Counted from the stretch's first letter, positions 31,678 to 39,730 are shown. The stretch is 50,939 nt of DNA from an uncultured Caryophanales bacterium (GCA_946623125.1 CAMOQR010000006.1:1-50939), one strand, 5' to 3'. Numbers and translations are program-made. Notes: generated from the letters alone by a model not told the origin.

Positions 31678-31698
31678 ACACAATAGGAGGTAGAAAAT

Positions 31699-32280
31699 AT
31701 GAGAAAAGAAAATATGATTCAAAGCGTTGTAATGGTAATGTTGGCTGTTACAGTATTAGCAATGTCAGTAGGTTTTGCTGCATTCAATCAAACATTAAAT
31801 ATCAATGGGAAAGCAACTTTTTCAAAGGCAACATGGGATGTTCACTTTGATACAGACTCTTTTAGTGAAACATCAACAATAAAATCAGATAAAGCAAAGT
31901 TACAAGTAGGTAATACTGCAATATCATATGAAGTAACTTTACCAAAGCCAGGTTCAACATATTCATTTACAGTTAACGCTAAAAACTATGGAACAATTGA
32001 TGCAGCATTAAAAAAGATTACAATTACACCAGTTTTAACAGAAGATCAAAAGAAATTTATTTCATATGAAGTAAATTACAATGGAACAAAATATGAAGCA
32101 ACAACTGACAACTTAGATATCGCATTAGCAGGAGATTCAACTGGAAATGGGAATGGGGCAACACATCCAGTAGTTGTAACAATTACATATAAAATGCCAA
32201 CAGAAGCAACAGCACTTCCTCAAGAAGACGTTACACTTGATATGACAGTTGCTTTAGACTATGAAGATAAAGCAAATTAA
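31699..32280 (+). CDS. TasA/camelysin-like SipW-dependent exported protein
   Basis: A 193-aa protein with a SipW-class signal: short basic start, hydrophobic helix (about 8-27) and the conserved stretch SVGFAAFNQTLNINGKATF right after it. The mature part (about 30-193) is beta-rich, as in TasA, CalY and camelysin, with the YSFTVNAKNYGTIDAALKKI and DVTLDMTVALDYED blocks. TasA forms amyloid-like fibres in biofilm matrix, and camelysins are related surface proteins. It is first in the cluster, directly followed by a signal peptidase of the same system. The start has an AGGAGG site. Confidence 0.82.
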   Translation: MRKENMIQSVVMVMLAVTVLAMSVGFAAFNQTLNINGKATFSKATWDVHFDTDSFSETSTIKSDKAKLQVGNTAISYEVTLPKPGSTYSFTVNAKNYGTIDAALKKITITPVLTEDQKKFISYEVNYNGTKYEATTDNLDIALAGDSTGNGNGATHPVVVTITYKMPTEATALPQEDVTLDMTVALDYEDKAN

Positions 32281-32301
32281 TAAAAAAGAACAAAACCAAG
32301 A

Positions 32302-32337
32302 TTGATAAGAATTACCCGTTTAGGTAATTCTTATCAA
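32302..32337 (+). other. 15-bp perfect intercistronic hairpin
   Basis: TTGATAAGAATTACC (32302-32316) and GGTAATTCTTATCAA (32323-32337) form a perfect 15-bp stem with loop CGTTTA. There is no T-run after it, so it is not a regular terminator. It probably marks an mRNA processing or stability boundary between the small exported protein and the signal peptidase gene, keeping the first highly expressed. Confidence 0.75.
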
Positions 32338-32356
32338 CATAATTGGGGTTGAGACC

Positions 32357-33484
32357 ATGAAAAAAAATGAAATATACATACTAGAAGCAATACTATTTGT
32401 TTGTATCATAATATTTAATATTGTATATAAAAATTATATTTACCTAAATCTTTCTATAACAACAATTGGAATCTATTTCATAGTGAGATTTGGTTTAATG
32501 AAAGATAATAACTACTTGAAAAAAGGGGCAATAAGACTTGTTATATCTTCTTTACTAACATATTTTATAACAATCTATGCTTTAGGATTATTGCTAGGAT
32601 ATCAAAAAACAATCTTTTCATTTAAATTATCCTATTTAATGAAAGTTGTTTTAATAGAAGCATTTTTAATTGTTATGGAAGAATTAATAAGATATATCAT
32701 AAGTAGAAATACCCCACATCAAAAATTACCAATAATTATATACACATTAATACTAGCAGTATTAAATATTATAATAGAAATAAATGGATATAACTTATCA
32801 GATAATGAGGCGAAGTTTATTTTTCTTTCAACAGTCATAGTACCTGTATTATGCAGAGAAGCCATTTGTTCCTATATCACATACAAGATATCTTATGTAC
32901 CAAGTCTAATATTTAAGTTATCAATTGTGCTATATCAATATATATTTCCAATTATTCCAAATTTAGGGAATTATTTATATGCAACAACAAACACTTTACT
33001 ACCATATGTGATTTATATATTAATCAAAAAATTTCATGACTATAAAGACAATGAAAAAACATATCATAAAAAAGCCAACAAACGTTTAGCAACAATTCCA
33101 TTATTAACATTATTAATAATTTTAATAATATTAATATCAGGAGTATTTAAACACACCATGATAGCAGTTGGATCTAATTCAATGGTACCAACCTATGAAA
33201 GAGGAGATGCCATTATTTATGAAAAAAGAGATATCAAAAATATAAAAGTAGGAGAAATCATAGCATTTCGAAAAGATGGAAGAATTATTACACATCGAAT
33301 TATAAGTATGAAAAATAGTAATAATAAATACACTATAAAAACAAAAGGAGATGCGAATAGAACACCAGATGCTTTTATTGTAGAAGATAAAGAAATCTTA
33401 GGAGTTGTAAAATTTAGAATAAAGTATATTGGATTTCCAACCTTATGGTTCAATGATTTATATACTGGGAAGGGGACAGAGTAG
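32357..33484 (+). CDS. SipW-type signal peptidase with N-terminal membrane domain
   Basis: A 375-aa protein. The C-terminal part (about 250-375) is an S26B signal peptidase: membrane anchor at about 246-264, catalytic Ser S275 in SNSMVPTYERGD, His H313 in ITHRII in place of the usual Lys, and the box GDANRTPD at 331-338. This is the ER-type pattern of SipW, the peptidase that processes TasA-like proteins. The first 240 residues hold seven or eight membrane segments, unlike the short SipW of B. subtilis; the role is unknown. An EExxR motif lies at about 108-112. Cotranscribed with its likely substrates. Confidence 0.85.
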   Translation: MKKNEIYILEAILFVCIIIFNIVYKNYIYLNLSITTIGIYFIVRFGLMKDNNYLKKGAIRLVISSLLTYFITIYALGLLLGYQKTIFSFKLSYLMKVVLIEAFLIVMEELIRYIISRNTPHQKLPIIIYTLILAVLNIIIEINGYNLSDNEAKFIFLSTVIVPVLCREAICSYITYKISYVPSLIFKLSIVLYQYIFPIIPNLGNYLYATTNTLLPYVIYILIKKFHDYKDNEKTYHKKANKRLATIPLLTLLIILIILISGVFKHTMIAVGSNSMVPTYERGDAIIYEKRDIKNIKVGEIIAFRKDGRIITHRIISMKNSNNKYTIKTKGDANRTPDAFIVEDKEILGVVKFRIKYIGFPTLWFNDLYTGKGTE

Positions 33485-33487
33485 TAT

Positions 33488-34534
33488 ATGACCTATGCAA
33501 AAAGACAATATATCATCTTTATATTTTTCTTAATAACCTTATGTCTAGGTTCTTTTTGCATAGTTAGAAGTGTCAATAATAAAAAAATTATTACTCTAAA
33601 TTATCAAGAAAACAATAACATTGACTATAAAGTATATTTAAAAGAAAATAACTTCTTTGATGAAAAATATATGGAAAAAGGAAAAACCTATATCACGAGT
33701 CTAATTGATTATATAAAAATAGATTATTCTTATAACATAAAATTTGATCAAGAAGTAAATGCAGATTATACTTATCAAATTAAAGCCAAAATTGAAGCAA
33801 ATAAAACAGATAATGAAGCAGAAAATTATTGGGAAAAAGAATATGTCATTACAGAAGAAAATAAAGGAAGTATAAAAAATAAAACGAATTTATCTATTAA
33901 TCAATCAGTAAATGTAGATTATAATAAATACAATAATATATTAAAAGATTTTAAAAATTCACTAGGTCTAACAAATTCAGATGGAATATTAAAAGTATAT
34001 TTAGAAGTAAAAGAAAAAATAAATGGAGAAGAAATAGAAACTCCTATTAATAGTAAAATGATTTTACGTCTACCACTATCACAACTTGCAATTGAGGCAA
34101 CAATTGAAAGTGATGTAAATAATAGAACAAATGAAATTAGAAAAGTTGTAGAAGAAAAAAATCCAGCAATTATTTTAATTGGAGTAATCGGAGTAATTTT
34201 ATTACTAATGAGTATTACCTTTATATGGATTTTAATAAGAAATAAAAAAATATATTCTATTAATAATCGTTATGAATTAGAGTTAAAAAAAATTCTAACA
34301 ACATATGATAGTATCATTGTAAATGTAGAAGAAAAGCCTTCTCTTGAAGATTATAATGTAATTCAAGTAGAAAGTTTTGAAGAATTAATTGATGCGCATA
34401 GTGAAATTAGAATGCCTATTAATTATTACAAAGGAGTAAACTATAGTTCTTTTATCTTATTAAATGATAAATCAGCATGGGAATATGATTTAGTAAAAAA
34501 TAATAAAAAAAGGAGTGCCAAACATGAAAGGTAA
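33488..34534 (+). CDS. DUF5305-like membrane-anchored protein
   Basis: A 348-aa protein, 3 nt after the signal peptidase gene. It has an N-terminal membrane helix (about 8-28), an extracellular domain with the repeated YKVYLKENNFFDEKYMEKG-type pattern (about 47-66), and YITSLIDYIKIDYSYN. A second membrane helix is at about 228-251 and a cytoplasmic tail follows. I recall such DUF5305 proteins beside SipW genes in archaea and clostridia; the name is from memory. It likely helps place or fold the exported TasA-like proteins. Its last 11 bp overlap the next gene. Confidence 0.65.
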   Translation: MTYAKRQYIIFIFFLITLCLGSFCIVRSVNNKKIITLNYQENNNIDYKVYLKENNFFDEKYMEKGKTYITSLIDYIKIDYSYNIKFDQEVNADYTYQIKAKIEANKTDNEAENYWEKEYVITEENKGSIKNKTNLSINQSVNVDYNKYNNILKDFKNSLGLTNSDGILKVYLEVKEKINGEEIETPINSKMILRLPLSQLAIEATIESDVNNRTNEIRKVVEEKNPAIILIGVIGVILLLMSITFIWILIRNKKIYSINNRYELELKKILTTYDSIIVNVEEKPSLEDYNVIQVESFEELIDAHSEIRMPINYYKGVNYSSFILLNDKSAWEYDLVKNNKKRSAKHER

Positions 34535-36821
34535 GGAAACTACTATCGTTACTGTGTTAGCACTTTTTTGTTTTCTATTTATGAGCATTGGATATGCAAT
34601 GTATGGAGCAAATGCAACAGTAACGGGACAAGCAAAATTTATAAAAAATGGAAAAACATCTATAACAAGTGCAATTTTATCAGATTATAAAAATCTAGAA
34701 AATCCAGAAAATCCACAAGTAGATGGAAATAGAATCTCATTTGATTTAAATTTTAATGTTGCAAGAACAGAAGAAGCCTTAAATGATCAATATTATGCAA
34801 CTTATACAATTACAATAACAAATGATTCATTTTTAGATTATACATTTGAAACTGGTAATTTTGTACCAAGCCTAAATACATCGAATAATGAAGATATAAG
34901 TGTATCGTATAAAATGGAAGGAATTGAACCAAATGAGGTAATTCCATCAAAAGAGGCTAAGACGTTTACATTAACCATTACTATGATTCCTAATAACGTA
35001 GGAAACTTCAATGTATCAGGAGATACAGAATTTAATGGTGATGAAAACCAAGAAACTGGTTCATTAATAGGTACGATTCCAAAAAATATAACAGGATCTT
35101 TAAAAAATAATAATGATAGAATGGAAATAACAGCATCTATTATTAACTCTTATGAAAATGATAAGAATTATAACATTAAAATAAATAGTAATAAATTTGA
35201 ATTGGTTGATGAAAATGATAATGCACTACAAACATATACGATTGGTGCTAACCAAGAACAAGAAACTAAGTTCTATATTAAATTAAAAGAGGATGCAAGA
35301 TTTGCTGTAGAAACACAAAGTATTAATATATTTTTTGAACCGGAAGATGGAACACAGACAAGTATGGGAGTAGTAACCATAGAAGTAAGTAAAGATACAA
35401 CAATTGTTGATGTAACACCACCAACAATAAGCAGTGTAGAAGCCTCTTTCCAAGCAGCAAAAGGAAATGTATTAGTTTCTTATCAAGCAAATGATAACGT
35501 TCAAATAGATCACTTTACAATTGAGGCATACAAGGTAACAGACGGAGTAGGAACTCTATATTCAACAAATACGGCAACCGGTGATACAACAAATTATACC
35601 GTAACGAATCTTGAAGATGGAGACTATTACTTTAAAGTAATTGCAGAAGATACAAGCGGCTTAACAACAGAAAAACAAACAGATACAAGTAATTATTTAT
35701 GGACGATGCCAATTACAATTTCAATTTCAGGAGGATCTCCAAACGGAAATTACACAGTAGATTATGGACAACCATATACAGTAAACATAACCGCAAATAA
35801 TAATAGAGCAGTTCCTAGTAGTTTAACTGTAAAAATGAATGATGTGACATTAGGTGAAAATGATTATTCTTATACAGTAAGAAATGGAACGGGTACATTT
35901 AGTATTAATAGCGTAACTGGTAAACTAGATATTAGTGGAGAAACAACAGATTCAACTTGTTTAATCAAAGGAACAAAAATAAAATTAGCAAATGGAAAAG
36001 AAAAAAATATTGAAGATATAAAATATGATGATTTACTATTAGTTTGGAACTATGAAACAGGAAAAGTAACAAAAGAATATCCATTATGGATTGAAAAACC
36101 AAAATCAACAACAACTTATACAAGAATAACGTTTAGTGATAAATCATATATTAATATATATGGAGATCATGCATTCTTCAGTTATGATAAAGAGAAGTTT
36201 GTTCAATCCACAAATACAGAAGATTTTCATATAGGTACAAATATTTTAAAACTAACAAAATCCAATAAACTAAAAAAGGTAAAAGTAACAAACATTGAAA
36301 CTAGCGAAGAAGAAACAACATATTATTTTGTAGCATCTACAAGATACTATAATGTAATTAGTAATGATTTTATAACAACAGATCGTTATACAGATATTAC
36401 AAATCTATATCCATTTGATAATAATATTACATGGAAAAACACTAGTAAAATGAAAATTCTTGATTATAAATACTTAGAAGATGTTTTACCATATTATTTA
36501 TATAAAGGATTTAGAGCAGGAGAAGTTGCAGTCTTATTAGCAAACAACAAAACCAACCTAGAGGAGTTTAAAAAGTATATAAAAACATCAATTATATCAG
36601 AGAATATGCTACAAGAACCTATCATGAAAGAAAATGATCGATACTGGGCAGTAACTACAGATACTGGTAAAGATAAAAAACTAGTAAAAGAAGGGGATTA
36701 TATTACATTACCAAAAAAGAAAAATATAAAATATTGGTATAGTACATCTGAAAACAAAAAGTATAAACCAGGAGAAAAAGTACAAGTATGGACTGGAATG
36801 CATTTTGAATCAGTAAAATAA
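34524..36821 (+). CDS. Large TasA-like exported protein with C-terminal Hint domain
   Basis: A 765-aa protein. The N-terminus has a SipW-type signal (hydrophobic 6-25, then SIGYAMYGANATVTGQAKF). A TasA-like beta region (about 30-290) and a Fn3-like repeat (about 295-395, TPPTISSVEASF..YYFKVIAEDTSGL) follow. Then a Hint domain starts at C479 (CLIKGTKIKLANGKEKNIEDIKYDDLLL), with GDHAFF as the His-containing block and YYNVISNDFI (N614) near its end. About 145 residues follow. Hint domains self-cleave at the Cys, so the protein may be split or cross-linked outside the cell. The start at 34524 has an AGGAG site; 11-bp overlap with the previous gene. Confidence 0.8.
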   Translation: MKGKETTIVTVLALFCFLFMSIGYAMYGANATVTGQAKFIKNGKTSITSAILSDYKNLENPENPQVDGNRISFDLNFNVARTEEALNDQYYATYTITITNDSFLDYTFETGNFVPSLNTSNNEDISVSYKMEGIEPNEVIPSKEAKTFTLTITMIPNNVGNFNVSGDTEFNGDENQETGSLIGTIPKNITGSLKNNNDRMEITASIINSYENDKNYNIKINSNKFELVDENDNALQTYTIGANQEQETKFYIKLKEDARFAVETQSINIFFEPEDGTQTSMGVVTIEVSKDTTIVDVTPPTISSVEASFQAAKGNVLVSYQANDNVQIDHFTIEAYKVTDGVGTLYSTNTATGDTTNYTVTNLEDGDYYFKVIAEDTSGLTTEKQTDTSNYLWTMPITISISGGSPNGNYTVDYGQPYTVNITANNNRAVPSSLTVKMNDVTLGENDYSYTVRNGTGTFSINSVTGKLDISGETTDSTCLIKGTKIKLANGKEKNIEDIKYDDLLLVWNYETGKVTKEYPLWIEKPKSTTTYTRITFSDKSYINIYGDHAFFSYDKEKFVQSTNTEDFHIGTNILKLTKSNKLKKVKVTNIETSEEETTYYFVASTRYYNVISNDFITTDRYTDITNLYPFDNNITWKNTSKMKILDYKYLEDVLPYYLYKGFRAGEVAVLLANNKTNLEEFKKYIKTSIISENMLQEPIMKENDRYWAVTTDTGKDKKLVKEGDYITLPKKKNIKYWYSTSENKKYKPGEKVQVWTGMHFESVK

Positions 36822-36851
36822 AAATATCCACAAGTAATTGTGGATATTTTT
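36821..36851. terminator. Bidirectional terminator after the TasA cluster
   Basis: AAAATATCCACAA pairs with TTGTGGATATTTT (loop GTAA), T-runs on both strands. A near-identical stem is used at 44011-44047. Confidence 0.85.
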
Positions 36852-37803
36852 ATGACTTAATAAAAGTTTTAATAAAAGAAGAACAAGAAATATTATCACC
36901 ATAAATTTCAAAATGATTTAATAATTCTTCTAAGGATTGATCAGCATCAAATACATTCTGACAATATCTTAAAATTTCATTTTTTTGTTTATTAGAACCT
37001 AATAAATACAACTTAAATAAAGAAAATGCTTTCAAAGTAGATAATAAATATTGACTATTAGCACAATAATCATAATCATCATAGTCATCATCAATAGAAT
37101 TTTCATATAGATACATTGAGTAATAACTAACTAATAATTGATTAATTCGATCTACTAAATCAAATTGAAAAGTATTAGCATCTAATTCAAAAGCATATAA
37201 TAATTCAATAAAAATACTAAGAACTTCCATATTATAATAATCACGAATAATTCCCTTTTTAGATGCTAACTGAGTATGAGCAATCTCATGTATATAAGTA
37301 ACAGCAGTCATAGAAGTATTCAATTTTGGTAATAATATTTTTTCAAAATAAATATTAATTTTATTCAAAATTTCTGAAAAATCTTTTTCATTTGATAAAG
37401 GTTCAGGCAGAACAACAAGACTTCCATTATAAAAATCTGTTTCCATAAAATGAACAGGTAATAAAAATGGATCAATTTTGATAGATGAATAATTATAATA
37501 ATCAATAAATTCACCTGTAGAACATAGTCTTCTATTTTTAAAAACTGTTTCATAACTAGAATGACTCATGTATCCAATTTTATGTGTCTTAAAAAGGTAA
37601 TTGAAATATTCTTGAGTGTTTTTTCGTATATTAGATAAGGAAATGATAGGAAGAGAAAGAGATGAAAGATCTGGAGTATCTATTTGAGAAATAGAAAAAA
37701 GTTCTTGGGCTACTTCAAGTGATACCTCATATTTCAATAAGTCAGTATCGTTTCCATATAATAACAAAAATAATTTTAAATCATTCATTGTATATTTACC
37801 CAT
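36850..37803 (-). CDS. Putative zinc metallopeptidase (HExxH)
   Basis: A 317-aa protein with the zincin motif HEIAH in TYIHEIAHTQLASKKG near 168-172 and a downstream EVLSIFIELLYAFEL that could supply the third ligand Glu, as in M3-like zincins. The N-terminal half (about 1-150) is not recognised. There is no signal peptide or membrane segment, so it is probably cytoplasmic. A long acidic stretch (DDDYDDYDY) lies near 240. The start is uncertain: the ATG at 37803 has a close GGTGGG, and the ATG at 37788 is an alternative. Confidence 0.68.
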   Translation of the reverse strand: MGKYTMNDLKLFLLLYGNDTDLLKYEVSLEVAQELFSISQIDTPDLSSLSLPIISLSNIRKNTQEYFNYLFKTHKIGYMSHSSYETVFKNRRLCSTGEFIDYYNYSSIKIDPFLLPVHFMETDFYNGSLVVLPEPLSNEKDFSEILNKINIYFEKILLPKLNTSMTAVTYIHEIAHTQLASKKGIIRDYYNMEVLSIFIELLYAFELDANTFQFDLVDRINQLLVSYYSMYLYENSIDDDYDDYDYCANSQYLLSTLKAFSLFKLYLLGSNKQKNEILRYCQNVFDADQSLEELLNHFEIYGDNISCSSFIKTFIKS

Positions 37804-39415: not shown

Positions 39416-39730
39416 ATGAATGAATATGATATAAAAGATTATGGAATATTTAGTGATGCTATAGCAACAACAAAAAATTATATTGAAACAATTAGAGATG
39501 CAGAAAATACAATTAGTAATGCAAAAACAAAAATTGGAAATGAAAGTATCTTTATGGGGCCAATTCAAGAAAATTGTATGGAAGAGTTTCAAAATGTAAC
39601 CCAGAGTCTAACAGGGTATACATCAGACTATGAAAAATTGAATAATTACTTAACCGCAACCAGTCAGTCCTATCAAAAAGCAGATACGGATGCGACCAAA
39701 ACAATATCTGATACAGTTTATAGAGCATAA
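39416..39730 (+). CDS. WXG100/ESX-like small secreted protein
   Basis: A 104-aa all-helical protein of ESX/WXG100 size. The turn between the two helices reads FMGPIQENC (about 46-54), with FxG in place of WxG. The C-terminus has the type VII signal YxxxD (Y86-D90, YQKAD) expected right after the second helix. WXG100 proteins leave the cell as dimers through EssC. A strong AGGAGGG site precedes the ATG, and a terminator follows at once. It lies 25 kb from essC in this window but is a good substrate candidate. Confidence 0.75.
   Translation: MNEYDIKDYGIFSDAIATTKNYIETIRDAENTISNAKTKIGNESIFMGPIQENCMEEFQNVTQSLTGYTSDYEKLNNYLTATSQSYQKADTDATKTISDTVYRA

Follow-up and report, generated by a model that had tools for sequence, protein, structure and literature searches.

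Fibres of the SipW/TasA type are a main matrix system of Gram-positive bacteria. In the fibre operons TasA/TapA/SipW of Bacillus and CalY/TasA/CapP of Bacillus cereus (PMC10151520, PMC9674648, PMC13082335), a signal peptidase is encoded together with exported proteins; an aromatic residue at P2' is a feature of TasA's SipW signal (PMC10269814), and TapA starts the TasA fibres by donor-strand complementation (PMC10151520). Among Hint domains, that of Hedgehog performs the first acyl shift only and then transfers cholesterol (PMC7664689, PMC4031507), type B BILs, which have no block G, cleave without splicing, and a block-B Thr assists the N-terminal step in inteins (PMC4031507). Here, we describe a locus in which a Hint domain ends a protein of a SipW-type operon. 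The initial annotation of this DNA knew of no described TasA-Hint fusion, and no paper containing both "Hint domain" and "SipW" was found in the open-access literature.

The window, i.e., the whole stretch of 50,939 nucleotides that was analysed, is one entire contig of an uncultured Caryophanales bacterium, the genome of which has a completeness of 71%. At 31699-36821, four open reading frames on the + strand encode proteins of 193, 375, 348, and 765 amino acids (aa), with the following features:

31685..31690, + strand: Shine-Dalgarno AGGAGG of the 193-aa gene (sequence)
31699..32280, + strand: 193-aa SipW-signal protein (open reading frame; aromatic P2' in the sequence; low-confidence all-beta model)
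31780, + strand: predicted mature start of the 193-aa protein, A28-F29 (sequence)
32301..32338, + strand: 15-bp RNA hairpin in the gap separating the 193-aa gene from that of the peptidase (z -6.5)
32357..33484, + strand: archaeal-type signal peptidase I (SipW-like), 375 aa (TIGR02228, 90.9 bits)
33488..34534, + strand: DUF5305 protein, 348 aa (PF17231, E 1.3e-22)
34524..36821, + strand: 765-aa exported protein with C-terminal Hint and post-Hint module (open reading frame, profile searches)
36818..36853, + strand: 16-bp hairpin with A/T flanks, likely a bidirectional terminator (z -7.1)

The genes of the peptidase, the DUF5305 protein, and the 765-aa protein are spaced by 3 nt or overlap, the last of them starting at ATG 34524 with AAGGAG immediately 5', and a strong hairpin (z -7.1) stands at the 3' end of the unit. 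Given this spacing and the 3' hairpin, the four genes likely form one transcription unit, as had been proposed; a promoter scan gave fewer matches than in shuffled sequence and hence no promoter evidence. The hairpin at 32301..32338 recurs in position in five relatives, the stem being near-identical in four and different in the fifth, and would be consistent with a higher transcript abundance for the 193-aa gene.

Homologues of the 765-aa protein were found in 17 of the 78 other genomes searched and also in the named rumen MAG contigs L025 and L026. The same four genes keep their order and orientation at 14 loci in different genomes (L025, L029-L032, and L034-L042), with L026 and L033, where the Hint gene stands alone, as the exceptions; the genes downstream of the cassette are not conserved among loci. 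The conservation in 14 further genomes excludes a chance arrangement, these four genes form a real unit, and the homologue search for the fusion, a check suggested with the initial annotation, has placed the Hint protein of this SipW system in operons of all 14.

The 375-aa protein scores 90.9 bits with the archaeal-type signal peptidase model TIGR02228 (cut-off, 51.85) and falls below the Bacillus SipW equivalog NF046067 (54 bits vs a cut-off of 190), and the 348-aa protein reaches 80.8 bits with PF17231 (DUF5305; cut-off, 29), so that the SipW-type peptidase and the DUF5305-like protein read earlier from the sequence were both recovered. The two exported proteins also have the SipW-type signals ascribed to them, namely SVGFA/AF in the 193-aa protein and SIGYA/MY in the 765-aa protein (the slash marks the predicted cut), with aromatic P2' in both. 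Furthermore, the 193-aa protein and the N-terminal domain of the 765-aa protein are homologues (hhalign probability 98, E 6.7e-14, the leader adding to the alignment). The label "TasA-like" for the 193-aa protein, in contrast, could not be established: no TasA or camelysin model was matched in profile searches (PF12389 and NF046066), an hhalign alignment to TasA covered 20 columns only, and a fold search with its all-beta, low-confidence model (pLDDT 61.5) had TasA (8aur) at rank 27 with E 0.01. Archaeal bundling-pili AbpX, at E 0.038, is only a lead. Homology to TasA is hence left without confirmation for this protein, which is presumed to be a fibre-forming subunit.

The 765-aa protein is composed of a partner-like domain, an Ig/Fn3 region, the Hint domain, and a conserved C-terminal module, in this order:

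34524..34598, + strand: predicted SipW-type signal peptide (SIGYA/MY), residues 1-25 (sequence)
34560..34994, + strand: partner-like domain, about residues 13-157 (hhalign to the 193-aa protein)
35421..35693, + strand: Ig/Fn3-like region, about residues 300-390 (PF07495, E 1e-4, below its cut-off)
35958..36380, + strand: Hint core, residues 479-619 (profile, model, fold search)
35958..35960, + strand: C479, the predicted Hint nucleophile and the one cysteine left after predicted maturation
36168..36170, + strand: H549, block-B histidine (59/60 modules)
36375..36380, + strand: T618-T619, at the site of the terminal His-Asn in inteins (structural end near 1at0 residue 402)
36381..36818, + strand: conserved post-Hint module, residues 620-765, with a helical and then a beta part

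The Fn3-like repeat noted earlier finds a weak counterpart in PF07495 (Y_Y_Y) but stays below the cut-off of that model. Within the family, the Hint core is the best-conserved part of the aligned sequences, with a mean pairwise identity of 50% as compared with 39% in the post-Hint region and 35% over the first 304 residues of the N-terminal part.

The Hint domain itself, which the initial annotation had started from C479, is supported by profiles and fold alike. Pfam PF01079 matched the 765-aa protein alone at E 7e-4, below the cut-off, and family members at 2e-6 at best, and a profile of 25 family sequences matched ciliate BIL domains at E 1.6e-8. An AlphaFold2 model of residues 470-765 (16 sequences), the construct suggested for comparison with Hint/BIL folds, predicts the Hint horseshoe with a core pLDDT near 90 and the post-Hint region with low confidence. 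In a fold search, the Hint model retrieved BIL2 at Z 16.4 and BIL, intein, and Hedgehog matches at Z 15-16; those to Hedgehog lie at Z 15.0-15.4, with residues 258-402 of 1at0 aligned on residues 10-153 of the model (Z 15.0). By hhalign, the family gave no real match to one Hedgehog Hint sequence, and direct sequence homology to Hedgehog was not obtained in this comparison.

Sixty Hint modules were compared, 25 from close relatives, 23 from the wider class, and 12 from phages; they are mutually related, and their counts are not those of independent events. Cys1 is present in 60/60 modules and the block-B His in 59/60, whereas the terminal His-Asn of inteins and the block-B Thr (B:7) occur in 0/60, and F:4 holds a residue other than Asp. 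The domain thus has the horseshoe fold, Cys1, and block-B His of the HINT superfamily and, as a Hint without intein block G, would in its sequence belong to BIL type B. Replacement of C479 and N614 in close homologues had been named in advance as evidence against a Hint reaction: C479 is invariant, but residue 614, taken earlier for the catalytic Asn, is N/D/E in 13/10/2 homologues, and the His-Asn position is occupied by T618-T619 in the window's protein, so that N614 was discarded as a terminal Asn. The equivalent of Asp303, a residue verified in the Hedgehog sequence, is E524 by ungapped spacing from Cys1 only; this position is Glu in 21/25 close relatives and Lys in the phage copies, because of which we put no weight on E524. 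Also, the predicted mature protein has no Cys besides C479, and several homologues contain none anywhere in the protein but that of the Hint; C479 is therefore not retained for disulphides.

The module was further found in 30 of 395 genomes of the class, the weakest of these matches (L092-L094) being ordinary Hint domains with a terminal His-Asn. In other families of Bacilli, it terminates large surface proteins, and in metagenomic viral contigs it terminates phage structural proteins. The best viral-structure match was a Gaeavirus Hint protein (211 columns aligned); tblastn found no copy of the module in cultured phages, and a PHROGs search gave weak matches to unknown families only. The gene directly upstream encodes a SipW-leader protein of 199-236 aa in 15 of the 21 wider-class Hint genes with an intact start (counted by eye), and a second copy in L100 has a SipW-leader partner of 802 aa. 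In L117-L121, the partner and Hint pair closes an ABC/SipW cluster that also encodes one or two further SipW-signal proteins, a SipW-like peptidase (a label resting, in L119 and L120, on a genome-level archaeal-type peptidase search), a membrane protein, an ABC ATPase, a permease, and a lipoprotein. A Hint paralogue in L044 has as neighbours sipW and the gene of a protein that passes both camelysin PF12389 and SipW-signal TIGR04088, and sipW adjoins a Hint gene in L045. An archaeal-type peptidase above cut-off is present in 16/20 Hint genomes vs 7/20 others (p 0.01), which is supportive only, the 20 control genomes not being matched by family. A signal-motif control gave 14 matches, among which 10 were SipW-signal genes beside Hint genes and one was the L044 camelysin; it was thus contaminated by Hint-adjacent partner genes and led to the discovery of the partner gene. 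Judging from these gene neighbourhoods, the Hint/SipW link is wider than the four-gene operon.

Upon the computed features, namely the operon, the signals, the fold, the invariant Cys and His, the absent His-Asn, the post-Hint module, and the SipW link, we put forward a mechanism in which the cleavage, the resolution of a thioester, the acceptor, and an anchoring or capping role are what we infer. The operon would export the 193-aa protein as a fibre-type subunit together with a larger companion having a homologous N-terminal domain, and the dedicated SipW-type peptidase would mature both. Outside the cell, the Hint module of the companion would fold, and C479 would attack the preceding 478/479 peptide bond, moving residues about 26-478 onto C479 as a thioester with the assistance of H549; a thioester is proposed there since Cys1 and His are kept and His-Asn is lost, which would leave the first acyl-shift step only. 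With no intein His-Asn end to carry it further, the reaction would halt at the thioester, which a nucleophile from outside would resolve. The Hint domain and the conserved C-terminal module (the C-terminal 287 residues) would then depart, and the N-terminal part would stay behind, most likely bound by the C-terminus thus created to an acceptor in the cell envelope or matrix. The attached companion may anchor or cap the fibre, by analogy with the fibre-starting TapA (PMC10151520).

We hold this self-shedding at C479, most likely ending in attachment and in anchoring or capping, as a tentative reading somewhat short of an even chance. Pointing to it are the counts of Cys1 (60/60), His (59/60), and His-Asn (0/60), the conserved order and orientation of the cassette, the fold match of the Hint (BIL2 at Z 16.4, Hedgehog at 15.0-15.4), the sole-Cys pattern, the best-conserved Hint core (50%), the homology of the N-terminal domain to the partner, and the links to SipW systems. 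Against it stand the absence of the block-B Thr in 60/60 modules, the Lys at the Asp303 equivalent in phages, the missing hhalign match to the single Hedgehog Hint, the low-confidence model of the post-Hint region, and the presence of sortases in the genus, which makes a new route of anchoring unnecessary a priori.

Alternatively, the C479 thioester might merely be hydrolysed, with the Hint and post-Hint regions acting as a self-removing pro-domain or intramolecular chaperone that prevents assembly of the fibre companion until export and nothing being attached. The Cys/His/no-His-Asn pattern fits such hydrolysis too, the module is found at the end of structural proteins from unrelated systems (phage contigs and large surface proteins of Bacilli) as a generic pro-domain would, and type B BILs without block G cleave without splicing (PMC4031507). 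Plain hydrolysis would, however, not need a differently built post-Hint region, which is conserved over long distances, and we regard it as possible, if rather unlikely; attachment is slightly favoured over it because the distinct post-Hint module is conserved and the companion is placed in the operon as TapA is. A catalytically dead Hint, kept for a stable structural or adhesive role, would account for the loss of the block-B Thr in all copies and for an F:4 position that is not Asp, but it is improbable in view of the near-complete retention of Cys1 and His, the Hint Cys as the only cysteine in several homologues, and the Hint core as the most conserved part. Hint domains precede toxin tips in polymorphic-toxin systems, and the domain might likewise free a C-terminal toxin here; the post-Hint region is, nonetheless, homologous throughout and not exchanged, no toxin family was matched in the Pfam search, and the loci have no conserved downstream immunity-gene candidate, and this arrangement was rejected as highly improbable on its conserved, non-variable C-terminal tip. 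An intein or type-A BIL, splicing or C-cleaving, would have the same Hint fold but has next to no likelihood: with His-Asn absent in all 60 modules and N614 not conserved (N/D/E), protein splicing is unlikely and the joining suggested earlier finds no support by way of splicing or of BIL-A chemistry, whereas thioester activation of the 478/479 bond would remain, and cleavage or a Hedgehog-like transfer, also suggested earlier, may still take place.

A broader reading, in which a class-wide single-Cys Hint without splicing chemistry would be the bacterial counterpart of Hedgehog autoprocessing, cutting SipW-exported companions and linking them covalently to an acceptor independently of sortase, is doubtful. 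Sortase matches number five in the window's genome and at least three in every same-genus genome searched; a simple replacement of sortase was thus rejected. If the attachment through the C479 thioester is true, the self-processing Hint in fibre operons would offer a testable covalent mechanism for fixing or capping the fibre base and a sortase-independent route of covalent attachment, would carry Hedgehog-like chemistry over to the assembly of bacterial surfaces, and would supply protein ligation work with a natural Hint that has a single cysteine.

In comparison with the Bacillus TasA/TapA/SipW and CalY/TasA/CapP operons (PMC10151520, PMC9674648, PMC13082335), the locus likewise combines an archaeal-type signal peptidase of its own with small exported beta proteins, whose signals have an aromatic P2', and with a companion in the same operon, one per operon as in TapA/TasA (PMC10151520); it differs in adding the DUF5305 protein and the Hint-ended companion and in a 193-aa protein that misses the TasA/camelysin models. 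With type B BILs, it shares the common Hint fold, Cys1, and the absence of the block G His-Asn (PMC4031507), whereas the Hint of the window ends its protein with a conserved post-Hint module and lies inside a SipW fibre system. Bacterial secreted proteins likewise ending in Hint were described by Burglin in 2008 (PMC2362128) from Myxococcus, Stigmatella, Serratia, and others; the passages that describe them give two upstream cysteines and no SipW link. Finally, while the window's family has no hhalign match to a single Hedgehog Hint sequence, no block-B Thr, and no Hedge domain, it resembles Hedgehog Hog in being secreted and in carrying a C-terminal Hint with Cys1 and His, without His-Asn, that is followed by a further region and superposes on 1at0 at Z 15.

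Within the four-gene unit, the 193-aa gene and the gene of the SipW-like peptidase are separated by a strong hairpin, whose position was found to be kept in five relatives; also, another gene of the window encodes a small helical-looking protein:

32301-32338, strong hairpin between the 193-aa gene and the peptidase gene
39416-39730, 104-aa protein resembling, by eye, a WXG100-type helical protein

In genomes of the genus (e.g., G023, G027, and G013), relatives of the 193-aa protein that carry a SipW signal form a large expansion, with up to 52 matches per genome. Several of these, located in other SipW operons (loci L122 and L123), continue into a fused C-terminal part that contains WWLRS...GVSPAFRI and looks lectin-like.

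As for the Hint protein, loci L026 and L033 have it with a different N-terminal domain and without the 193-aa, peptidase, and DUF5305 genes, and its gene there adjoins those that look like ftsE/ftsX. In loci L117-L121, a Hint protein belongs to a conserved cluster together with SipW-signal proteins, a SipW-like peptidase, an ABC transporter, an 810-aa protein, and a Flg_new lipoprotein. We also noticed a second Hint protein in the window's own genome (G000:C10:41518-42507; L002 and L048), which possesses InlB-type repeats and a transmembrane segment. A polybasic insert (such as KKKKKKRRKK) is present in its Hint and in the Hints of L022 and L023.

While tblastn found no Hint plus post-Hint module in cultured phages, phage structural proteins in metagenomic viral contigs (L049-L066), judged by eye to be collagen-like and LamG-like, terminate in this same module.
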